DNA of 48,164 bases from a virus, in the IMG/VR virus record IMGVR_UViG_3300031027_000022, positions 1 through 48,164 of that record; one strand, given 5' to 3'. Made by a program: the position numbers and the translations under genes. Below the pieces are notes generated by a model. The model ran no database searches. It was not told the origin of the DNA and was given only the letters and a program-made list of their open reading frames with translations. Positions 728-48,164 of this stretch are shown piece by piece; positions within the stretch are counted from its first letter, which is position 1; every line of letters begins with the position of its first letter.

Positions 728-853
728 ATGAGCCGACCTGCCGCGAATCTTATCGAACTAATCCGACTACGAGGCCAGGACCACGGCGCATTGCTTGAAC
801 ATTTAATTATTGTGCTGGTCCATCTTATCCTGGAGGAAAGTTATCGTGTCTAA
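728..853 (+). CDS. Putative 41-residue protein
   Basis: An ATG at 728 follows AGGGGTTAATT and opens a 41-codon frame (starts MSRPAANLIE, ends EESYRV). It is rich in Leu, Ile and His and would form an amphipathic helix. Its last eight bases overlap the GTG start of the next gene, typical of translational coupling. No family recognised. Confidence 0.55.
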   Translation: MSRPAANLIELIRLRGQDHGALLEHLIIVLVHLILEESYRV

Positions 854-1748
854 AAAATTCGAACTGACTAGCGAATTCCTAGTAAATGTTTTCGGTGTAA
901 AACTTTTTCGCATTAAAGCCTTGGCTTCTTTCTCGGATGTAACTATCGGGGATTTAGGGGGTTTTGTAGAAAAAGAAGATAACTTCAGTGCTGAGGCACA
1001 GATCTCCGGCGATGCCTGGATCTACGGCGATGCACAGATCTCCGGCAATACGTGGATCTCCGGCAATGCACAGATCTCCGGCGATGCACAGATCTACGGC
1101 GATGCACAGATCTCCGGCAATGCACAGATCTCCGGCAATACGTGGATCTCCGGCAAGGCACAGATCTCCGGCGATGCACGGATCTACGGCGATGCACGGA
1201 TCTCCGACAATGCGTGGATCTACGGCAATGCACAGATCTACGGCGATGCACAGATCTCCGACAATGCGTGGATCTACGGCAATACGTGGGTCTCCGGCGA
1301 TGCGTGGATCTACGGCGATGCACAGATCTACGGCAATGCACAGATCTACGGCGATGCACAGATCTACGGCGATGCACGGATCTACGGCAATGCACAGATC
1401 TCCGGCAATACGTGGGTCTCCGGCGATGCGTGGATCTACGGCGATGCACAGATCTACGGCGATGCGTGGATCTCCGGCGATGCACGGATCTCCGGCGATG
1501 CACGGATCTCCGGCGATGCACGGATCTCCGGCGATGCACAATTAATTTGGTTTTCTAAAGTCGGTAGCGAAGAGGGCACGCTTACTGTATTCAAAGCGGA
1601 AGCAGGGCTGAAAGTAACGCGAGGATGCTTCTTAGGCACCGATGTTGAATTTTTAGCCGCCGTAGATATTAAGCACGGTGCGGATTCCAAGATTGGCAAA
1701 GAATACCATTTGCTGATCGAGGTCGCTCGGTCACGGTTAGGAGGTTAA
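846..1748 (+). CDS. YdcK-like left-handed beta-helix hexapeptide-repeat protein
   Basis: A 300-residue protein. The GTG start at 846 is chosen because GGAGG sits 9 bases upstream; a longer frame from a TTG at 810 lacks this. The N-terminus (about residues 1-50, with FRIKAL and IGDLGGFVEKE) and the C-terminus (with TLTVF and TRGCFLGT) match the conserved ends of YdcK-like polymer-type proteins found in phages and gut bacteria. Residues 51-230 are thirty hexapeptides of the form A-[QWR]-I-[SY]-G-[DN], the signature of a left-handed parallel beta-helix, about ten coils. No acyltransferase catalytic His is evident within the repeats. It lies in the small-gene arm, not among virion genes, so a tail-fibre role is not supported by context. 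Confidence 0.85.
   Translation: MSKKFELTSEFLVNVFGVKLFRIKALASFSDVTIGDLGGFVEKEDNFSAEAQISGDAWIYGDAQISGNTWISGNAQISGDAQIYGDAQISGNAQISGNTWISGKAQISGDARIYGDARISDNAWIYGNAQIYGDAQISDNAWIYGNTWVSGDAWIYGDAQIYGNAQIYGDAQIYGDARIYGNAQISGNTWVSGDAWIYGDAQIYGDAWISGDARISGDARISGDARISGDAQLIWFSKVGSEEGTLTVFKAEAGLKVTRGCFLGTDVEFLAAVDIKHGADSKIGKEYHLLIEVARSRLGG
996..1535 (+). repeat. Thirty tandem 18-bp coding repeats
   Basis: Thirty in-frame 18-base units, each coding one hexapeptide. Most units differ only at three codons: CAG/CGG/TGG (Gln/Arg/Trp), TCC/TAC (Ser/Tyr) and GAT/AAT (Asp/Asn). Many units carry the palindrome AGATCT. Near-identity at DNA level, including third codon positions, indicates recent expansion by slippage or gene conversion rather than protein-level selection alone. 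Confidence 0.95.
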
Positions 1749-2919: not shown

Positions 2920-3312
2920 TTACAGATGCAGCAGTTCCTTCAAGCGCGCCCACAAGGCATGTACTTCCGCGCCGGCGTCGTCGTAAGCCGTTTTGATATG
3001 GCTTTCCACTTCTGCAGCTAGGTCCGTAGCTTCATCGTGATCGGTAGGGGTAATCACCACGCCGGTTGTGCTCGGATCAGCAGACACCACGGCCGGGGTT
3101 TCAGCGGCAGGCTCGGTTTGCGCAGCATCTTGAACAGCAGGGGTTTCGACCACAGGTTCAGCTTGCGCGGCATCTTGAACAGCAGGGGTTTCGACGACGG
3201 CCGCAGTGCTCGCTTCCGCGGTAGCAGCAACTTCAGGGGTCGATACTTCGGTGACAGGTTCGGCTGCGGGTACGGCTTCCGGGGTTTCGCCAGTTACGGT
3301 CTGATCGCTCAT
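2920..3312 (-). CDS. Acidic Ala/Pro/Glu-rich low-complexity protein
   Basis: The start at 3312 (MSDQTVTG) is preferred over an upstream frame start at 3330 because AAGGAAACAAA directly precedes it. The 130-residue product is mostly Ala, Glu, Val, Thr and Pro, and contains a duplicated stretch around VVETPAVQDAAQ. Only the last 40 residues (DEATDLAAEVESHIKTAYDD on) look folded and helical. It is the last gene of the late operon, after the spanin genes. Function unknown; an accessory virion or lysis-timing protein are both conceivable. Confidence 0.75.
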   Translation of the reverse strand: MSDQTVTGETPEAVPAAEPVTEVSTPEVAATAEASTAAVVETPAVQDAAQAEPVVETPAVQDAAQTEPAAETPAVVSADPSTTGVVITPTDHDEATDLAAEVESHIKTAYDDAGAEVHALWARLKELLHL

Positions 3313-3364
3313 TTTGTTTCCTTGGTTCAAGTTAATAAGGTAAGAGCCGCTACGATAACACGAT

Positions 3365-3595
3365 TTATTTGCTCGGCGCTACAGCAGGGCAGTTTGCTCG
3401 ATAGGCTCGGTCAAAAGTATCGATCTCGCGCCGTGTCTCGATCGTATCCGATGCTGAGGCGGACATAGGAGAAAGCCAGGTACAGGCGCTATCGATTACC
3501 ACGGGTGCCGAGGGCAGCATGAGAGGGGCTTGGCTTGCGCATGACACCAGGGCAAGTCCTGTACAAGCTACTAACACTCTAATTAGCGTGCGCAT
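3365..3595 (-). CDS. Rz1-like outer-membrane lipoprotein (o-spanin candidate)
   Basis: A 76-residue protein with a basic N-terminus, a hydrophobic stretch and a lipobox (LVSC, modified Cys at about residue 19), so it should be exported and lipidated. The mature part has two further Cys (DSACTW and ANCP) and a helix around DTIETRREIDTF. Small lipoproteins of this kind sit next to Rz genes in many phages of Gram-negative bacteria and complete the spanin bridge. Its start codon touches the stop of the Rz-like gene, as usual for unembedded spanin pairs. It is not Pro-rich like lambda Rz1, so the call rests on lipobox and position. Confidence 0.65.
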   Translation of the reverse strand: MRTLIRVLVACTGLALVSCASQAPLMLPSAPVVIDSACTWLSPMSASASDTIETRREIDTFDRAYRANCPAVAPSK

Positions 3596-3900
3596 TAGTC
3601 TTTCCTCAGTTCGCCCATGGCGCTTAAGTCAGCATCGATCGATGCATCAGGGATAGCGGTTGTCGCTTTTTGCGCCGCTACACTGTTCTGCACATCGGCT
3701 GTTACGGCCTGTGCAGCCTTCGCTTGGCCTTGTGCTGCGGCTGCTTGACTGTTAGCTAGGGCAATCTGCGTACTTGCCTTAGCCGTGGCCGCAGCGACCC
3801 CTGTAGCGCGGCCGTGGAACCAACTACCGATGCAGCCGGCGCCCAGGGCCAATAGCCCGAGGAATAACTTGCTTGAAAATAGAGATAAAAGCAGCGTCAT
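3595..3900 (-). CDS. Rz-like i-spanin candidate
   Basis: A 101-residue type II membrane protein: one N-terminal transmembrane helix (about residues 5-28) and an Ala/Gln-rich periplasmic region with helical, coiled-coil character. It lies immediately between the endolysin and the lipoprotein gene, the classical place for the inner-membrane spanin. With its partner it would fuse inner and outer membranes at the end of lysis. Sequence identity to known Rz proteins is not obvious; topology and position carry the call. Confidence 0.65.
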   Translation of the reverse strand: MTLLLSLFSSKLFLGLLALGAGCIGSWFHGRATGVAAATAKASTQIALANSQAAAAQGQAKAAQAVTADVQNSVAAQKATTAIPDASIDADLSAMGELRKD

Positions 3901-3902
3901 GA

Positions 3903-4550
3903 TTAGATCCTTTCAATGAAGGATACGACATCTTGCACCAAGGAGGGTGCGGATACAGGCGCTTCGACAACCGCCAGGGTACCTTCAGAGGTGGCGGCCG
4001 GTACCGGCATAGGCTCGGGTACCGATTCGGCGGCAGGCGCACCGATTACCCCGCCGGCCGCAGTATCCGCAGCCTCTAAGGCTGCGTCCGTCGATTCGGG
4101 CTGGCCGTAACTATTACCGGGCAGACTGGCCCAGATATGCGCGCACAGGCCAATAGCTGTATCTAAGTCGCCGGCCAGAATCGCGGGAATAGCATTGCAT
4201 TCTTTGATCAGCCGGATAGCCCATTTATCTTGAGATAGAGGGCTGAAGTCCGGCAAGGATAGCAGCGCTTTATAGGCCAGCCAGTCTTTTACCAGGAACT
4301 GGTACCGGCCACTGGCCGTAGAGGTCAAGCCTACGTGATTCACGACGACCGGCGCACGGCCGGAGGCGAAAGGGTGCTGGCTGTAATCTGTAAAAATATT
4401 AGGACCGTTAACGCCCGACACAATTACGTCGTAGCCGTCGTTAGCCGTAACCGGGCTACTTGCGGTACCTTCACTGGCTTTTGACGCGATCATATCGAGG
4501 AAAGCCGTGATATTCGTACCGCCTACTAAATTCGGATTAATGACAGCCAT
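3903..4550 (-). CDS. Endolysin, lambda R-type lytic transglycosylase
   Basis: A 215-residue protein whose first 150 residues follow lambda R (glycoside hydrolase family 104) closely: ASEGT with the catalytic Glu at residue 27, NDGYDVIV, FTDYSQHPF, TASGRYQF, LPDFSPLSQD, and NIWASLPG-type CAHIWASLPGNSYGQ. The enzyme would cleave MurNAc-GlcNAc bonds in peptidoglycan, forming anhydro ends. There is no signal peptide, so release depends on the holin. A Pro/Ala/Glu-rich tail of about 60 residues ends in an amphipathic helix (VQDVVSFIERI) absent from lambda R; its role is unknown. Confidence 0.92.
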   Translation of the reverse strand: MAVINPNLVGGTNITAFLDMIASKASEGTASSPVTANDGYDVIVSGVNGPNIFTDYSQHPFASGRAPVVVNHVGLTSTASGRYQFLVKDWLAYKALLSLPDFSPLSQDKWAIRLIKECNAIPAILAGDLDTAIGLCAHIWASLPGNSYGQPESTDAALEAADTAAGGVIGAPAAESVPEPMPVPAATSEGTLAVVEAPVSAPSLVQDVVSFIERI

Positions 4551-4852
4551 TACTCACCTCTTCGGTCAAAAGTTAAAACACGGGCCAGAATAATCAGCAG
4601 AGAGCCGATAGCGGGGGCGACAGATCCATCGGCGTGCGGGAAAAAGCGCATGACAAATGGCGCCACGTTCGGCCACTGGTCCGCCAAGGAGGGTAGCAGC
4701 CGCGGCACGGCTAGGTAAAGACCGGCGAAGGTGGCGGCGATATGGATCGACCCGTATTTCCAGCACTCGCGCCAGTCATCAACTAAACGCAGCCGGAAGC
4801 CACGTCGCGTTACCGTTGGCGGTGTAGGAAGATTACCCAGTGGTGTAGTCAT
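4550..4852 (-). CDS. Holin-like membrane protein
   Basis: A 100-residue protein with a basic/Trp-rich cytoplasmic N-terminus (DDWRECWKYGS) and two hydrophobic segments (about residues 35-54 and 77-92). The W-x-x-x-WKYxSIH motif resembles the DUF7940-type phage holins. It lies directly upstream of the endolysin, with the start and stop nearly overlapping. It would form the membrane lesion that lets the endolysin out. Confidence 0.75.
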   Translation of the reverse strand: MTTPLGNLPTPPTVTRRGFRLRLVDDWRECWKYGSIHIAATFAGLYLAVPRLLPSLADQWPNVAPFVMRFFPHADGSVAPAIGSLLIILARVLTFDRRGE

Positions 4853-4854
4853 GA

Positions 4855-5265
4855 TTACCCTGCAAATTTTTCAAGCAACGCATATCCTTTCATCGCCCAA
4901 GTCGCCCATACGGGTAGGGTTTGAAAGGTCAGATAATGGACAAGCGCTATGATACCTAAAGTCGCTAAACCTTTTTTAGATAGCAGCCAGGTCACAGCCC
5001 ATTCATAAGTGCGCGCCGCTTTACAAAACCCTCGGCCCCAGCGCGCCCCGCCTTCCCACATGCCGACGATTCCTTCAATCGAAGATTTAATCTCAGCGCT
5101 AGAACCGTCCTGTCGTTCTAAATGCTCTTTGATCTCTGTCACAGCGCAAGCAAGACCGGATAGCGCTTCTGAGACTTCTTTAAACCGATTACCCCCGACG
5201 TCTAATTGATGCTCAGCGCGGCCCATGCGCTCGCGTAGTTCGCTAATCTCGGTTTCGGTGCTCAT
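4855..5265 (-). CDS. Coiled-coil membrane protein of lysis cassette
   Basis: A 136-residue protein: residues 1-65 are a charged coiled coil (ISELRERMGRAEHQLD), then a hydrophobic segment around residues 90-125 (KKGLATLGIIALVHYL). This layout resembles XhlA/hemolysin-type holin accessory proteins. It is the first gene of the lysis group, separated from the tail-fibre gene by a hairpin. It could be a second holin component or a regulator of the holin; no motif decides between them. Confidence 0.6.
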   Translation of the reverse strand: MSTETEISELRERMGRAEHQLDVGGNRFKEVSEALSGLACAVTEIKEHLERQDGSSAEIKSSIEGIVGMWEGGARWGRGFCKAARTYEWAVTWLLSKKGLATLGIIALVHYLTFQTLPVWATWAMKGYALLEKFAG

Positions 5266-28446: not shown

Positions 28447-29715
28447 TTAGTAGCCGTCGCCGTTGCCGAGGGCCAAGCTGATACCGTAAGTGAAGCAGTC
28501 CAGTAAATCATCTACTTGATCCTTCACGCCTATCTTGAATCCGAGCACTTGGGTGAGAAAGTGATTCCGGGTCTCGCCTTTGTATTGCACTACCTTATCG
28601 TAAGCGTATTGAGTGATCTTAACGAGGCCTTGATAGACATAGCCTGAGACGCTAATCGCCCGTTCATCCTTGCCTAGTGCCGTAAGTTTACTGTCAATTG
28701 CCTGTGCAGGCCACCCGCGACGCAAGGCCTGCTGGATAAGGATAGTACCTGAAGCCTTATCTTCGATGAAAGCGCCCTGTGATCCGTTACGCGCCTTGGT
28801 CTTAACGCACAGCGCTTCTAGGTTCTGGAAAACCGTGGGTAGCCAGGTCTCAAGCAGCGCGCCTTCGATCTGCAGCACATCCCAATCCAAGATGGTAAGC
28901 GGCTTGCCGTGGAACTCGGAATATCCATAATACGTTACGCCGGTACCGTCGTTATCCTTGCCTGTCTTAACTGCTGTATCGATCACGGCGAACACAGTAT
29001 CGATGTGCTGAGGGGTCGGCACGGGCACGCCGTTATCGAGCATCGCCGTGAGGCTAAAGAATTGCACCCCGGACCAATCCACGAACTCAGCGAGGTATTC
29101 TTGCTTAAAGACAAGCGGGTGATTCTGTACCCGGAGTAGAGCTAACTCCTCGGGCGGCAGGAAAGGATTGCTATGCGACGGCGCATGATAGCTGATAAAC
29201 CCGTGCTTGTTCTCAGGGTCATTGCATATCTTGTAGAAGAAATTATCTGGGTCAACCCCGTTCGGCGTACTCGCTGCAATTGCTGTGCCGCGATAGTCGA
29301 GCAGGGTAGGCTTGATGGATTTGGCCCAGATATCCATCATATTCGGTTTAGCAAAAGCCACTTCGTCAAGGATGGCTTTGTGGTACTTGCGGGACCGGCC
29401 GGCACGCGGGTTCTCTAAGGTCCAGAAGTCAATCCGGCCTCCTGTGACTAGCCGGATCACACCTTCGGTTTTAGACGACCGACGCTTAACGACTTCCAGG
29501 ATATCAAGGATCTGTTCATATACCTCGGTCTGCTGCTTATACTCCGGCGTAAACCAACCAACCGACTCACGTTTAACCGCAGCATCGCAAGCAACCGTAG
29601 TCAGATATTCAGTCTTGCCCCAGCGGCGCCCGCATCGCAATACCTTAAACCGGCCACGTGCGAGATGCGCGTTTATCTGCCCCTGGTGTAGTGTAGGCAG
29701 GATGATTTCAGGCAT
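28447..29715 (-). CDS. Terminase large subunit
   Basis: A 422-residue packaging motor. Walker A is CGRRWGKT at residues 28-35; Walker B is ILDEVAF with D117-E118. The C-terminal RNase H-like nuclease has Asp-rich motifs AVIDTAVKTGKDNDGTG (about 245-260), FIEDKASGT and DDLLDCF. It hydrolyses ATP to pump DNA and cuts concatemers. It overlaps the small subunit gene by eight bases. Confidence 0.92.
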   Translation of the reverse strand: MPEIILPTLHQGQINAHLARGRFKVLRCGRRWGKTEYLTTVACDAAVKRESVGWFTPEYKQQTEVYEQILDILEVVKRRSSKTEGVIRLVTGGRIDFWTLENPRAGRSRKYHKAILDEVAFAKPNMMDIWAKSIKPTLLDYRGTAIAASTPNGVDPDNFFYKICNDPENKHGFISYHAPSHSNPFLPPEELALLRVQNHPLVFKQEYLAEFVDWSGVQFFSLTAMLDNGVPVPTPQHIDTVFAVIDTAVKTGKDNDGTGVTYYGYSEFHGKPLTILDWDVLQIEGALLETWLPTVFQNLEALCVKTKARNGSQGAFIEDKASGTILIQQALRRGWPAQAIDSKLTALGKDERAISVSGYVYQGLVKITQYAYDKVVQYKGETRNHFLTQVLGFKIGVKDQVDDLLDCFTYGISLALGNGDGY

Positions 29716-31092: not shown

Positions 31093-31596
31093 TTATCTGA
31101 CGGGGATTGTAACGGCAAAATCCATATACCAGTTGAAAACGTCCCAGGCGTGCTTATGCCCGTACACGACAATACAGCAATACCCTTTACGATGCGCCGC
31201 TGCGGCAAACTCAACTTGGGCCTCGCTTTGGCCCCCGTTCTTTTCATTTTGTCGGCCTAAGCGCTTGAACTCTAAATAGAGGCCAAAATAACCGCCCCTT
31301 GCTTCTTGTATACAATAATCGTATACACCTGCGCGAACACCTTCGGCGGCTAGACGCACACGTTCTATCTCACCACGGGAGCCGCCGTTAGGTACGGCGT
31401 AGCCCAGTACGTCGGGATAAAACGTTTTTAACTTAGCCGTAAATATAACTTGGTCGGTATGTTCTAGTTTTATCTTAGGTTTAGTAGGCTTCGTAGCCTT
31501 AGTTTTAACTTTAACCCCTATCTCAAGAGATTTAGTAGTCTTAGCAAGCGTAGCAGGCCTAGCGAGAGGTTTTAATAAAGCTGCAATTTTAGCCAT
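31093..31596 (-). CDS. VRR-NUC domain nuclease
   Basis: A 167-residue protein. The basic first 45 residues (KTKATKPTKPKIK) look disordered. The rest is a VRR-NUC nuclease of the PD-(D/E)xK fold: PNGGSRG, a catalytic Asp in GVYDYCI, LYLEFKRLG with E-x-K, then QSEAQVEFAAAAHRKGY. Phage members are thought to resolve branched DNA or trim replication intermediates before packaging. It overlaps the HTH gene by eight bases. Confidence 0.85.
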   Translation of the reverse strand: MAKIAALLKPLARPATLAKTTKSLEIGVKVKTKATKPTKPKIKLEHTDQVIFTAKLKTFYPDVLGYAVPNGGSRGEIERVRLAAEGVRAGVYDYCIQEARGGYFGLYLEFKRLGRQNEKNGGQSEAQVEFAAAAHRKGYCCIVVYGHKHAWDVFNWYMDFAVTIPVR

Positions 31597-31828
31597 CTTT
31601 ACCCCCGAAAAGATCAGGTCTAAGCGTAGCAGCGCTAAATTTAGGATTTACCTTTTCAACAAGTTGCGCTCCTTTAGCGCTAATTTGCCCGTAAGACATC
31701 CATCCGGCGGCTCGGCCTTCAGGTATAGCTAAAATTCGGGCTAACTGCTTAGTTGAGCCCCCGTAAAAATCTAGTAAATCACGTAAAGCTAAACGCTTAG
31801 CCGCCTTAAAATTATCCGACTTAGCCAT
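31589..31828 (-). CDS. YdaS-like HTH regulator
   Basis: A 79-residue protein starting MAKSDNFKAAK with AGAGGGGG upstream. GGSTKQLARILAIPEGRAAGWMS is a Cro-type helix-turn-helix; the ending TLRPDLF is typical of YdaS/DNA-binding transcriptional regulators. It resembles the protein at 35456-35812. It opens the structural gene block and lies beside the motif-rich region 31829-32150, which probably holds its operators. It may time late transcription; no lysogeny partner is seen. Confidence 0.82.
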   Translation of the reverse strand: MAKSDNFKAAKRLALRDLLDFYGGSTKQLARILAIPEGRAAGWMSYGQISAKGAQLVEKVNPKFSAATLRPDLFGGKDG

Positions 31829-31855
31829 AAAACCCCCTCTTTATCCAATTTAAAA

Positions 31856-31873
31856 GTTAAAAAGCTTTTTAAC
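31856..31873. promoter_or_regulatory. 18-bp perfect palindrome upstream of HTH gene
   Basis: GTTAAAAAGCTTTTTAAC is perfectly self-complementary and ends 28 bases before the ATG of the HTH gene at 31828. Without a loop it is a better DNA operator than an RNA terminator. Autoregulation by the HTH protein is inferred. Confidence 0.55.
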
Positions 31874-31922
31874 CTTGTCAGGTACACCGTCTGGTACGCA
31901 CTCAGAACACCCCTGTGTACGG

Positions 31923-31953
31923 GCTGAAACCCTTACCTGTATTGGGTTTCAGC
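31923..31953. repeat. Inverted repeat, 10-bp arms
   Basis: GCTGAAACCC and GGGTTTCAGC are exact reverse complements 11 bases apart. No T-run follows on either strand, so it is not a standard terminator. It may be a structural element of the control region or an operator. Confidence 0.7.
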
Positions 31954-32009
31954 GATTTGGTACACGCGGTGCACCGGAATCGACAAAACTCTATCCTGAC
32001 GCATAATGT

Positions 32010-32033
32010 ATATATCGTAATATCACGATATAT
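32010..32033. repeat. Inverted repeat, 9-bp arms, operator-like
   Basis: ATATATCGT and ACGATATAT flank a six-base spacer. The 24-bp length and dyad symmetry fit a dimeric HTH protein binding site; the A/T content would also ease melting. Confidence 0.65.
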
Positions 32034-32150
32034 CATTTCTTCTTCTACTCTCTTTATTACTTTTTCAGTGTACCAGTGTACTAAAAGAAAGAAAGAAGAA
32101 TGAAATCAAGTACTTAAGTCGGTACACAGGTAGTGTACCTCCTGTGTACA

Positions 32151-34679
32151 TCAGTGTTCTTCAGCTATGTTATCTAAATTCCCTCCTATCGCATCCCGCA
32201 CTAAATCAAGATCAGTGCAGTTAGACCAAGCCACGTCCTTCGTATAAATAGTGTGTAGCCCCCGGCCTAATTTAACCCTGGACTTATAAGTTGCTAGCGG
32301 CACACGCACATAACCCATCTTGGCTAAGGTGCGCAGCATGCGGGTAGGCCCAGGCCACGGTAGAGCCCCGCTAAGCGGCCAGACGGTGCGCAGCCAGGTC
32401 ACAGACAGCAGCGTCTCATTCATGCCCAGGGCGCGGCCTCCTTGATCAAGCAGATCCTCTAGCATGCGTTCCTCGTCGTTACGGCTGACCTCAACCATGC
32501 GGTGCTTACCCTGGCTCTCCGGTGCTCGCGCATTGTTATTAAACGCTTCGGATATCACGCGCTCGGTAAAATACTTACGCAAGCTACCTGCGTTGGCGCG
32601 CATAGACTCAAACAGCCAGCCGTAAAACTTTTCATGTTTAACGCGGTACTGGCGCGCTTCCTCTTTAGTTTTAAAGCGCGTAAAAATAACGTAATAGCGG
32701 GTGTTGTCTTCGTCGAGAGGTAAAGCATCTTCGAAGTTAGTAAACATCATGTAGTTAGTTACGTTGACGGCGGTGTACGAAGTCTTACCCTTGGGGTTGA
32801 TATGCACCGAGCCGTTCGAGATATAAGGTTTCATCTTGTTAAGAATCGCGTACCGGTCTTTACCCTCTAAACGGATCTCTTCGACAAAATTAAGCAAGGA
32901 GCCGGCAGCCCAATCTTGGAAGTTGCCGCCGAGCATCGCAGGGTCAACCGGTTTGACGTTCGAGGTACCGAGCATGGCTTGACACATCTCGGCTAAAAAC
33001 GTCTTACCGATACCCTCATGTCCCCACACTAAAATTGCCCAACGGATCTTCTTACCCGGCTGTTGAACCGTCCAGGCGATGTAATCAAGCAGCATCTCCC
33101 GGTCCCGCGGGTCTTCGATGACGGCCTCTAGGTGGCCGAGCATGGCTTTTACGATCTCTGTGCCTGCAGTATCGTAAAACTGCGGCAACGGGGCGCCGGT
33201 ATCTTTATAAATATTTGCCCAAGTACCCAGTTCATCGGTAAAAATTAAAGGCTGACCAGGCCGATAGCGTGCGCCGTTTAAAACTTGCATACCGTAAATA
33301 TCCGTTGCAAGGGCCGAGGCGTTGCGCTGATCGTCAGGCATTTTTACGCGTTTATTAAAAATAGCGTTAAAGCTGGCAGGGCTATACGCTTTAGATTGCG
33401 CCGTGCTAAAGAACTCGTCATTCTCAGCGAGGTAGTACCAACCTTCCCACAGAGCCGACAGCGCCCCGTTAGAGTGCTCCCCTGGGGCAAGTACCTCGGA
33501 TGACCCGGCAGAGGCGCCAGGGGCCGATTTGAGGGCTTTCTTGACATCAGCTAGCGGGACGGTCGAGCCTAAAAGTGCACTTGCACGCGATTTAACTGCG
33601 TTTTGGATCGGAACCGCCATCACCGGATTAGCTGAAACGTACTTACGGAGGTCTTTAGTCAGCGGGCCGTCCATTAAATCGGTATAAGACTGCGCTTCGG
33701 CAATCATCTTATTTAACCGTAACCGGTAAGATTCGGCTTGAACGTTTTGTTCGGTTTTAGCCCAGTGAAAGATAGACGCGACGGTAACGGCGCTATCGCG
33801 GGTTTCGCTAAAGCTATTCCACTTGGCCAGTAGGCTATCGACGCCGTTATAATTTTTACCGGTTTGTGACCATCGGTCCCATACGTCGACACCTTCTAAG
33901 TTGCCGTCGAACTGATGATGCAAGGCCATGCCGACGTGTACCCATTGATCATAGTCGTCGGCATTGATAAAACTTAGCAGGTGATCAAGCTGAGTCGGCT
34001 CGATCGGTGCGGGCGCTTTTCGGTCAAGGAGCGCATCAACATCTGTCGGCGTGAGATCCGCAGCAACCCCGAAGGCGCCCCGTTTAAGGAACACCCACTT
34101 ACCGGCGGTGACCATCTGCGCACCAAGCGCTTCGAAGGCAGTGAGTACGGCTCTACAGTCGACGAGCCGCAAGAGGGGTAGCTGAAAGTAAGGTGTAGTG
34201 GCAGGGCTATCTTCGGGCCAGATATACGGGCGCTGAGTCCCTGGGTGAATGTGCAGAGCGGCATACTGTTGTCCTTTACCTAGAATTTCGATGCGATGCG
34301 TAATTGTCGGGTCCGTCGCATCGGCGTATTTAGCTGATAGCATTTTGCTAAACGGCTGATCGGTACGAAAAGCGAGTAGGGCGCGAGGCGGACGGCCGAT
34401 TCGCCGCAACCCTTGGCCGATGTGCATATCGATCCAGTCCACCATCGTATCGACTACAGATTCATCGGATACGTCGATATCGATAGCCGGCGCCCACTCG
34501 GTAATGATGCCGATACCTGCATGCGCGTGGCCGTTGGCTAACCACTTATTAAGATTGTCGAAGGAAGGCTGTACCGTGCTCCACCCTTTCATCCCCGGAT
34601 GTTTTTCCCCGGGCTGTATGGGCACGATGTTATAGCCATTGGTCAAAAGCTGACTACCATATTGGCTTAGCTCGTTCAT
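32151..34679 (-). CDS. Bifunctional primase-helicase (AEP + SF3/D5-like)
   Basis: The ATG at 34679 (MNELSQYG) is preferred to a TTG at 34724. The 842-residue protein starts with a prim-pol (archaeo-eukaryotic primase) domain: GIGIIT, catalytic IDIDV with D67 and D69, and RIEILGKGQQ...AALHIHPGT. A PrimCT-2-like region (DQWVHVGMALHHQF, about 245-310) follows. The helicase part has Walker A GHEGIGKT near residue 555 and Walker B LLNFVEEI, as in DUF5906/D5-type replicative helicases. It should prime and unwind at the fork. The candidate origin is just downstream. Confidence 0.9.
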   Translation of the reverse strand: MNELSQYGSQLLTNGYNIVPIQPGEKHPGMKGWSTVQPSFDNLNKWLANGHAHAGIGIITEWAPAIDIDVSDESVVDTMVDWIDMHIGQGLRRIGRPPRALLAFRTDQPFSKMLSAKYADATDPTITHRIEILGKGQQYAALHIHPGTQRPYIWPEDSPATTPYFQLPLLRLVDCRAVLTAFEALGAQMVTAGKWVFLKRGAFGVAADLTPTDVDALLDRKAPAPIEPTQLDHLLSFINADDYDQWVHVGMALHHQFDGNLEGVDVWDRWSQTGKNYNGVDSLLAKWNSFSETRDSAVTVASIFHWAKTEQNVQAESYRLRLNKMIAEAQSYTDLMDGPLTKDLRKYVSANPVMAVPIQNAVKSRASALLGSTVPLADVKKALKSAPGASAGSSEVLAPGEHSNGALSALWEGWYYLAENDEFFSTAQSKAYSPASFNAIFNKRVKMPDDQRNASALATDIYGMQVLNGARYRPGQPLIFTDELGTWANIYKDTGAPLPQFYDTAGTEIVKAMLGHLEAVIEDPRDREMLLDYIAWTVQQPGKKIRWAILVWGHEGIGKTFLAEMCQAMLGTSNVKPVDPAMLGGNFQDWAAGSLLNFVEEIRLEGKDRYAILNKMKPYISNGSVHINPKGKTSYTAVNVTNYMMFTNFEDALPLDEDNTRYYVIFTRFKTKEEARQYRVKHEKFYGWLFESMRANAGSLRKYFTERVISEAFNNNARAPESQGKHRMVEVSRNDEERMLEDLLDQGGRALGMNETLLSVTWLRTVWPLSGALPWPGPTRMLRTLAKMGYVRVPLATYKSRVKLGRGLHTIYTKDVAWSNCTDLDLVRDAIGGNLDNIAEEH

Positions 34680-34710
34680 AATTTTCGCTGTTATGAGCTT
34701 AGAAAACGAA

Positions 34711-34733
34711 GCCCCTCTAAACAACCAAGGGGC
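34711..34733 (-). terminator. Hairpin terminator upstream of primase gene
   Basis: On the minus strand GCCCCTT and AGGGGC pair across about ten bases, followed by TTCGTTTTCT. It lies between the stop of the gene at 34764 and the primase start, so it may limit transcription from the regulator operon into the replication gene. Confidence 0.65.
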
Positions 34734-35168: not shown

Positions 35169-35459
35169 CGGTGTCTCCTTAGTAAAATCAGCTAGGAAAT
35201 GTTGTTTGAGAAAATCAGCTAGGAAATGTTGTTTGAGAAAATCAGCTACTTCCTTAGGGTTAATAAAATCAGCCTCGTTGCAAACACAAACATCGTTTAA
35301 GAGCACAGAGCAGCGAATCCCTTGAAAAAGGACATCTATGTAAAAGCGATACACACCTTTCCACCCGCGGAGCGTTCTACGGAAAGAGACGTCTCCTCGT
35401 GACCCTCGTATCTCAGCGATCAGCACCTGGAAAGGGACAAGGATTAACGTATTGGTCAT
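34764..35459 (-). CDS. Hypothetical protein, possible gene fusion with tandem duplication
   Basis: A 231-residue frame. Residues 1-75 form one unit (SFRRTLRGWKGVYRFYIDVL, LLNDVCVCNEADF); residues 98-231 form an acidic helical unit (DYDDALEQDKSLARLKDAEV, ending EFNKPVKGE). They are joined by a nine-residue segment present twice plus a partial copy (ADFLKQHFL). A strong ribosome binding site, AAGGAGACACCG, precedes an in-frame ATG at 35168, the natural start of the second unit. This looks like two genes merged after loss of a stop, still able to make the second product alone. No family recognised. Confidence 0.7.
   Translation of the reverse strand: MTNTLILVPFQVLIAEIRGSRGDVSFRRTLRGWKGVYRFYIDVLFQGIRCSVLLNDVCVCNEADFINPKEVADFLKQHFLADFLKQHFLADFTKETPMPTDYDDALEQDKSLARLKDAEVFVALNSALDAKRKGATAHSDIPEGLKEDFIPEDYLQDAPPLEQITAATLEDQAIAFAQRVWSEGFTLAEAKLALSPGLSSAQYIQVAESFTASCINYLGVQLEFNKPVKGE
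35184..35247. repeat. 27-bp tandem duplication
   Basis: A 27-base unit beginning AAAATCAGCTAGG occurs exactly at 35184-35210 and 35211-35237, followed by a ten-base partial copy. It is a multiple of three, so it adds nine codons without shifting the frame. Identity is complete, so the event is recent. Confidence 0.95.
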
Positions 35460-35812
35460 GGTTTTTGCTCCGGCAAAGGGTTAGCTTTCAAGTAAGCCTT
35501 AGCTGCTGCAAGCTTGCTCTTAAATACCGGGTCTTTCAGCCACGCCGGATCGAGCACCTTGATATCCGGTCGAATATCCTCTAAATTCATCGGGAATCCC
35601 GGGAGAAGGCCGAGTAGCAGGGCGCCGTTGCGGCTGATCTGCCCGCGGTGCTTCATATAGACAATTGCGACAGAGGATACCCCCAGGATACGAGCGAGAT
35701 TATTACCGCTGCCCGCAAGGGCTAAGGCATTAGCTACACCTTGAGCGCAACTTTTTTTGTACTGTGCATCTTGCTTCGGGCTGACCTTAACCCGTGCCCC
35801 TCTTGCAGTCAT
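35456..35812 (-). CDS. YdaS-like HTH regulator, first gene of the minus arm
   Basis: The start at 35812 (MTARGARVKV) has AGGAGGCAAGCAT upstream; a longer frame to 36079 would cross the promoter region. The 118-residue protein contains AGSGNNLARILGVSSVAIVYM (helix-turn-helix) and HRGQISRNGALLL...LEDIRPDI, the YdaS-like layout shared with 31589-31828. It is placed at the divergent promoters and probably controls them through the palindrome at 35846. Its stop overlaps the next start as ATGA. Confidence 0.8.
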   Translation of the reverse strand: MTARGARVKVSPKQDAQYKKSCAQGVANALALAGSGNNLARILGVSSVAIVYMKHRGQISRNGALLLGLLPGFPMNLEDIRPDIKVLDPAWLKDPVFKSKLAAAKAYLKANPLPEQKP

Positions 35813-35845
35813 ATGCTTGCCTCCTGTAGTTAAATAGTAAAAGTT

Positions 35846-35859
35846 AAGTTGCAACTTAG
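35846..35859. promoter_or_regulatory. 14-bp palindromic operator candidate
   Basis: TAAGTTGCAACTTA is a perfect palindrome lying at the predicted start of minus-strand transcription and 34 bases from the HTH gene. Its position suits repression of the leftward promoter, probably by the HTH protein itself. Confidence 0.55.
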
Positions 35860-35865
35860 GACTTA

Positions 35866-35893
35866 GTGTAGCATACGGGTCTAGCCCTGCAAT
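35866..35893 (-). promoter_or_regulatory. Leftward sigma70-like promoter
   Basis: Minus strand: TTGCAG (35893-35888), a 16-base spacer, then TACACT (35871-35866). It points at the HTH gene and is back to back with the rightward promoter at 35910. Confidence 0.5.
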
Positions 35894-35909
35894 AGAATAA
35901 TAAAATTCT

Positions 35910-35938
35910 TGCACGGCAAAGATTAATACCCTATAGTA
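35910..35938 (+). promoter_or_regulatory. Rightward sigma70-like early promoter
   Basis: TTGCAC at 35910-35915, a 17-base spacer, then TATAGT at 35933-35938, reading into the small-gene operon starting at 35961. The -35/spacer region shares CGGmAAAGATTAAT with the promoter at 47703, so the two form a phage-specific promoter class. Confidence 0.7.
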
Positions 35939-35960
35939 CCCATAACAAGGAAAATGTGTC

Positions 35961-36158
35961 ATGCACGGGGACTTTCTACTGGTTTTCGCTTTTGTCGCAC
36001 TGTGCTTCGCCTGCATCGGTTGGACGTTTTTAAAGCTTATTGTAAGACTTGTAATGTACGCAGTGATCTTCATGATCATCTATATTATTTTGCACCAAGG
36101 GGCTAGGGTCAGCGCCCGCCCAATTGGAGCTTTAACTTCACAGGAGTATGTAGCGTGA
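35961..36158 (+). CDS. Small membrane protein, first gene of plus arm
   Basis: A 65-residue protein with one or two transmembrane helices (FLLVFAFVALCFACIGWTFL and VMYAVIFMIIYIIL) and a short polar C-terminus. AAGGAAAATGTGTC precedes the ATG. As the first rightward gene it is expected early in infection, a place often used for host-membrane or exclusion functions, but nothing specific is recognisable. Its stop overlaps the GTG of the next gene. Confidence 0.75.
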   Translation: MHGDFLLVFAFVALCFACIGWTFLKLIVRLVMYAVIFMIIYIILHQGARVSARPIGALTSQEYVA

Positions 36159-36727
36159 GTCGATTTCACCCCGAATTAAACGCCTTCGATATCGCACGCA
36201 TGCTTGTGCTCGGCGCGCGCGATTGCCTAGGCGAGCTAGCCGCAAGCGCCTTAGCCTTTGTCGTCAGCTCACCTAGAGTTGCAGACTGGCTGATTGAACG
36301 TGCCCAGCGCACGCCGTACATCCATATCGGTGAGGGGCCGGAAACCTATATGTACCGGTACTGGCTGTTCAATGCTTATGATAGCTGGACCCACAAATGC
36401 AAATACGCGCCCTTCATTAAACACTCAGCACGTATCCACGAGATTATGCGCCCGGACAGCAGCCGAGATCATCATGACCACCCTTGGAACGCTCGCACAT
36501 ATATTTTGAAAGGGTGGTATATCGAGCAGCGTGAGGATGGCCGCACCTATCTGCGTCAACCGGGGGATACCGTAGCGATAAACTTTAACGAATATCACAC
36601 GATTATTTCGGTAGCCCCCGGCGGCTGTACCACGCTATTCGTGACAGGCAAATACCGCGGTATCTGGGGGTTTCTTGTCGACGGGGTAAAGGTGCCGCAC
36701 TTTGACTATGATAAGGGCCGAGTATGA
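36155..36727 (+). CDS. Cupin-like metalloprotein
   Basis: A 190-residue protein starting at GTG 36155, which overlaps the upstream stop as GTGA. Residues 85-180 follow the cupin pattern found in many phages: ARIHEIMRPDSSRDHHDHPW (metal ligands in the H-D-H-P motif), TYILKGWYIEQ, PGDTVAINFNEYHTI, and TLFVTGKYRGIWGFLVDG. A double-stranded beta-helix binding one metal ion is expected. The substrate is unknown; related proteins are annotated only as cupin or cysteine-dioxygenase-like. It is an early gene. Confidence 0.78.
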   Translation: MSRFHPELNAFDIARMLVLGARDCLGELAASALAFVVSSPRVADWLIERAQRTPYIHIGEGPETYMYRYWLFNAYDSWTHKCKYAPFIKHSARIHEIMRPDSSRDHHDHPWNARTYILKGWYIEQREDGRTYLRQPGDTVAINFNEYHTIISVAPGGCTTLFVTGKYRGIWGFLVDGVKVPHFDYDKGRV

Positions 36728-48031: not shown

Positions 48032-48082
<51 letters not shown>

Positions 48083-48104
48083 ACGAGACCAAGGGACAGA
48101 GAAA

Positions 48105-48164
48105 ATGAATAACGCCCAGAAATTTCAAGCCGAATTGACGACCCAATACACGCGCCTTTTCGCA
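48105..48164 (+). CDS. Partial copy of the gene at 110
   Basis: The first 20 codons of the 77-residue protein at 110-343, cut by the end of the window. This is the circular overlap, not a second gene. Confidence 0.95.
   Translation, partial: MNNAQKFQAELTTQYTRLFA

Follow-up and report, generated by a model that had tools for sequence, protein, structure and literature searches.

A GTGTAC iteron array 3' of a PrimPol-helicase gene is a candidate replication origin in a tailed phage and its relatives

In PICI origins, which lie 3' of rep, an A/T-rich region has a set of iterons on each side (PMC6092414), a layout that a 2018 paper described as not shared by any other known bacterial replicon, and in SaPIs the C-terminal domain of Rep reads the iteron origin downstream (PMC7581432). 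The isolated C-terminal domain of SCCmec Cch2, a D5-type helicase, binds direct repeats that directly follow the helicase gene (PMC7581432), and the P4 alpha protein is a primase-helicase fusion whose C-terminal winged helix binds origin repeats (as described in PMC4234260). ORF904 of pRN1 combines an AEP primase, a helicase and a C-terminal winged helix, and a region 3' of its gene is essential in cis; pRN1-type origins keep their layout while the sequence varies, and stem-loops have been proposed for related phages such as BIP-1 (PMC4234260).

Here we describe a comparable locus in a tailed phage represented by a single IMG/VR virus record of 48,164 bp (the whole stretch analyzed, hereafter the window). 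The entire intergenic region at 31829–32150, our candidate replication origin, is bounded, as a first-pass annotation had it, by a PrimPol-helicase gene (32151–34724, − strand) and a YdaS-like HTH gene (31589–31828, −), the latter followed by a VRR-NUC-type nuclease gene (31093–31596, −). A site count confirmed the eight exact GTGTAC/GTACAC copies claimed for this region in both orientations. Three exact sites lie left of an A/T-rich core, GTGTACC at 31882–31887 (−), GTGTAC at 31915–31920 (+) and GTGTACC at 31960–31965 (−), together with two degenerate iterons, GCGTACC at 31894–31899 (−), recovered when one mismatch was allowed, and GGTGCACC at 31968–31975, from a matrix scan. The right set holds the remaining five: GTGTACC at 32068–32073 (+), GTGTACT at 32076–32081 (+), 8 bp past the preceding iteron, GTGTACC at 32122–32127 (−) and at 32133–32138 (+), and GTGTAC at 32144–32149 (+), the first iteron beyond the primase stop codon and 1 bp away from it. 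An 11-base spacing had been noted for three copies; the starts are indeed 11 bp apart (32122, 32133, 32144), but the first of the three is inverted.

GTGTAC occurs 26 times in the whole window against 14.5 expected, a count reached in none of 100 shuffles. When the full window was simulated with a first-order Markov model, the most frequent 6-mer attained only 5–6 copies per 322 bp; when the 322 bp alone was simulated in this manner, at least eight copies arose in 5 of 2000 cases. An 11-bp matrix derived from the eight sites placed all eight among its ten best genome-wide matches, a partly circular result. The top local 6-mer counts of the real window correspond to obvious repeats (a CA run, GCC repeats and a repeat-protein gene). 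The repeat-rich protein gene at 810–1748 (+) carries 12-copy DNA repeats (GCATCGCC and related), and its product matches phrog_7964 (function unknown) as well as structural or tail families; a CA dinucleotide run at 48034–48146 lies close to the contig end, where assembly possibly stopped.

The A/T-rich tract proves to be exceptional on the scale of the genome, the window's most A/T-rich 60, 100 and 150 bp all beginning at 31978–32005. The most A/T-rich 100 bp (32004–32103) contains two of the iterons and represents a candidate DNA-unwinding element. Three dyads of 18, 24 and 31 bases, also reported earlier, are real: an 18-bp palindrome without mismatch, GTTAAAAAGCTTTTTAAC, on the HTH-gene side of the array (31856–31873); a 24-bp dyad, ATATATCGTAATATCACGATATAT, with 11 of 12 pairs, in the A/T-rich core (32010–32033); and a 31-bp dyad with perfect arms, GCTGAAACCC-N11-GGGTTTCAGC (31923–31953). 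The last was rejected as a canonical terminator for lack of a T-run, and GCTGAAACCC was dismissed as a shared element, its only exact copies being in the window and in the relative L029, probably by chance. Scans for intrinsic terminators and sigma-70 promoters yielded nothing above chance. Cumulative GC skew, suggested earlier as a check, has its minimum at 45.2 kb and not at the array, but is uninformative as a test here because it is confounded by gene orientation, which switches near 36 kb. A cupin/cysteine-dioxygenase-like gene (36155–36727, +; phrog_4786, E 1.5e-37) separates two divergent replication operons.

The proposed initiator, encoded at 32151–34724 (−), is organized, according to domain searches, modeling and alignment, into PrimPol, PriCT_2, a DUF5906/D5-type helicase and a C-terminal domain, with PrimPol, PriCT_2 and the DUF5906 helicase region all recognized by Pfam. 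Alignment with relatives suggests that the true start of the primase may be the ATG at 34679. The AlphaFold2 model (pLDDT 86.7, pTM 0.52) matched the NrS-1 PrimPol helicase, ASFV PrimPol and SaPI5 PriRep1 (7ola/7pds; E ~1e-8, 12% identity) in Foldseek, and this last match, together with the DUF5906 region, relates the helicase core to SaPI Rep. Profile search further ties the primase to NrS-1 and to pRN1 ORF904, in the latter case through the ORF904 N-terminus. The C-terminal domain (residues 735–857; 32151–32522, −) is modeled as winged-helix-like, its helix-strand-helix-helix-strand-strand order being typical of winged helices, with a candidate recognition helix at ~32319–32348 and a wing at ~32241–32279; Foldseek with this domain alone returned only non-significant matches, several of which are winged-helix proteins. 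We propose this domain as the iteron reader.

Compared with SaPI/PICI origins, the locus likewise lies immediately 3' of the initiator gene, in the window as in relatives, has two sets of short iterons around an A/T-rich core with an element-specific motif (PMC6092414, PMC7581432), and adjoins a primase whose model resembles SaPI5 PriRep1 (7ola, 7pds). It differs in that PrimPol and helicase are united in one protein and in that the origin, here a predicted one, belongs not to a satellite but to a full-size tailed phage that itself encodes a DNA polymerase. With this candidate origin, the PICI-like layout extends to full-size tailed phages. The window encodes terminase, portal and tail-module proteins, DNA polymerase, exonuclease and helicase; with its own terminase, portal and tail-module genes it was rejected as a PICI element, that is, as a helper-dependent satellite, and since it is a phage genome the PICI comparison is limited to the origin. 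The Cch2 system also places repeats directly downstream of a D5-type helicase gene, but has three iterons only, a separate primase/polymerase and the context of an integrated staphylococcal element. The P4 ori/crr system likewise has a primase-helicase fusion, with a C-terminal winged helix for origin repeats as proposed here, although the P4 primase is of the Toprim type and that of the window AEP/PrimPol. With pRN1 the similarities are the initiator architecture, the cis region 3' of the gene, a layout that persists as the sequence varies, and the profile match given above, whereas pRN1 has a 100-nt stem-loop without iterons; a pRN1-type origin with a single large (~100 nt) stem-loop was rejected for the window, where iterons are present and the dyads measure 18–31 bp. 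By analogy, the best account of the element is a phage counterpart of a satellite or mobile-element origin of known kind (SaPI/PICI, SCC Cch2, P4-like).

The same phage was found only as the window and five near-identical contigs. A 98% variant (L006) carries one change within the 322 bp and none in the iterons, and because this sole change lies outside the iterons, the variant is informative on little more than conservation. More distant relatives were traced through the primase, which is nearest to those of Casjensviridae and allies (BcepNazgul, AH2, JS26 and chi-like phages) at ~30% identity and ~90% coverage or more. The large terminase instead matches PdC23/QDWS/Chronis-type phages at 48–50%, with no Casjensviridae among the matches listed, indicating that the genome is a mosaic in which replication genes of Casjensviridae type (primase, 32151–34724) are combined with a PdC23/QDWS/Chronis-like large terminase (28447–29715). 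Other replication genes of the window encode an exonuclease, a Gp2.5-like SSB and a DNA polymerase.

Arrays with differing motifs recur at the same location in these relatives. BcepNazgul and AH2 carry a AGGTCCGAAT array just 3' of the homologous primase gene, with copies in both orientations within the non-coding region of BcepNazgul, and arrays occupy the corresponding position in AhaSv and Suzuki (ACTGTCAC), JS26 (CCTACGCAAT), phiAxp-2 (ACCTGCAAG), UF_RH7 (CCCTAAGT), YSD1 (GGTTACAAG), SS2019XI (TGTCCCGGA) and many IMG/VR contigs fetched with primase alignments. In the closest relatives, L029 and L030 (36–38% primase identity), the AACTAGACCC and AATCGGTCA arrays are located between the primase and VRR-NUC genes, in the same order as in the window. 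The relatives' arrays consist of a short motif in both orientations flanking an A/T-rich core, with site clusters of alternating orientation (for example +++ --- +++ in L076 and L080) and a within-cluster spacing of mostly 7–18 bp. With one locus taken per 70% primase identity (n = 55), the block 3' of the primase strictly outranked every other two-orientation array of its locus in 18 cases (4.5 expected), a strictly positive outcome for only about one locus in three. Among the 38 array-bearing loci, 29 have their most A/T-rich 100 bp inside the array (1.3 expected), the same relation as in the window. This method revealed no clear array in FoX4, in R16L or in several GC-rich relatives, and the automatic array calls in L044, L051, L075 and L081 are probably coding repeats, not origins.

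Two further loci merit description. L132 encodes a PrimPol-PriCT_2 protein (2980–4959) in which an AAA_25 helicase replaces the D5-type, and a dense two-orientation GTGCGAGA array (nine sites, one mismatch allowed) lies directly after its stop codon (~4960–5180); the arrangement may thus not be limited to D5-type helicases. By eye, BPP-1 (NC_005357, L207) displays two opposed TTTGCCTCG pairs around an A/T-rich core ~465–575 bp 3' of the primase, which constitute a candidate origin simpler than the stem-loop proposed in PMC4234260.

Chi-like phages offered a closer view of which protein reads the motif. Among them most site positions and strands are kept and the motif differs at all sites together (GGTAACAA, GGTAACAG, GGTTACAA, ATTACAAG, GTAAGAAG), with position conservation above random placements in most, not all, pairs. 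Between L090 and L094, the HTH protein (96%, 81 residues compared), PrimPol (96%) and helicase (99%) are nearly constant, whereas the C-terminal domain is only 63% identical and the motif changes from GGTAACAG to GGTTACAA; L093 and L100 likewise combine an HTH protein at 98% with a C-terminal domain at 35% and the motifs GGTAACAA and GTAAGAAG, respectively. Given that motif and C-terminal domain changed while the HTH protein remained near-constant, both pairs favor the primase C-terminal domain over the HTH protein as the reader. A preliminary residue pattern among chi-like phages, bearing on the wing and recognition helix, pairs GGTAACA with GGLxK[FL][ED]G and GGTTACA with GGVxKFGG. An all-pairs regression did not single out the domain (motif similarity versus C-terminal domain r 0.50, versus helicase 0.53), and as the domain adjoins the array, their joint exchange could also arise by linkage alone. 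From these sequence comparisons, the primase C-terminal domain is the candidate reader of the iterons.

The same pairs bear on an earlier suggestion that the array could be the operator set of the YdaS-like protein, coupling replication to late transcription; in such a reading the protein would bind the array and control the HTH/late operon. The HTH gene and the late operon, both on one strand, do lie directly downstream of the array, and most relatives have a YdaS/Cro-like gene accompanying the primase. Against this, the HTH protein is 96–98% identical in the two chi-like pairs despite their differing motifs; L029 and L030 carry the array with no HTH gene after it, establishing that the array is independent of that gene; and the arrays of Nazgul, AH2, JS26 and UF_RH7 are without an annotated HTH gene immediately after them. 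In the loci scanned, the promoter of the upstream Cro-like gene has no exact sites, and the only consensus promoter-like site faces the wrong way, at chance level. The suggestion is thus not supported by comparison, and we regard an operator role as quite improbable. The HTH protein itself has as relatives only the same phage and one doubtful match, and BLASTP of P0002 against the small HTH protein encoded upstream of the L029 primase gave no alignment. Upstream of the window's primase, where relatives have a Cro-like gene, a 207-aa protein (35456–36079, −) contains a second weak YdaS-like domain at residues 116–173.

A role in packaging (cosB/pac), with the terminase small subunit binding repeats beside a cos in the gap, might be suspected from the annotated cos overhang of BcepNazgul, 613 bp 3' of its primase, and from chi-like records, in which the primase is also near the genome end. 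Yet the array of the window still sits beside the primase although the large terminase groups with PdC23, QDWS and Chronis and not with Casjensviridae; Chi and Nazgul have GCGCAGAGC in common at their cos ends while their arrays differ; and in chi-like phages a changed motif accompanies a changed primase C-terminal domain. Packaging is therefore a very improbable function. The conserved cohesive-end GCGCAGAGC is absent from the window, excluding a Chi/Nazgul-type cos site, and both the cos-site and the master-operator readings were rejected on comparative evidence. In plasmids and P4, initiator-bound iterons serve for control, and the array could by the same token be bound by the initiator chiefly to control copy number or incompatibility, or to work as an enhancer (compare P4 crr), while replication starts at another site. 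This too is very unlikely: the same 11-bp matrix revealed no further array in the window, and array and A/T-rich core coincide in most relatives.

The origin reading raised by the first-pass annotation, in contrast to its operator reading, is well supported comparatively, as the same element with a different motif lies 3' of a homologous initiator gene in many phages. We consider it likely that 31829–32150 is the replication origin of this phage, its iterons read by the C-terminal domain of the neighboring initiator. In the mechanism we envisage, the winged-helix-like C-terminal domain of the PrimPol-helicase would bind the GTGTAC(C) iterons on either side of the core, and this two-sided binding would allow the assembly of helicase rings around the A/T-rich core, which they would melt before unwinding outwards; the initiator's own PrimPol domain would prime, and the phage DNA polymerase would extend.

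A broader proposal, which we put forward tentatively, is that tailed phages of a broad class, from chi-like to soil phages, possess a fast-evolving, self-specific iteron origin 3' of the PrimPol-helicase gene, and that origin and C-terminal domain change in concert as a swappable specificity cassette following the logic of PICI satellites. If true, this cassette reading would suggest that phage and satellite replicons share an origin, as well as replicon exclusion between co-infecting phages. Searches of openly available papers found no described origin for phage chi or Casjensviridae. The locus provides a concrete, testable candidate origin for phage chi, Casjensviridae and many uncultured phages, and the all-site motif turnover constitutes a natural data set on how one winged-helix-like domain reads DNA.
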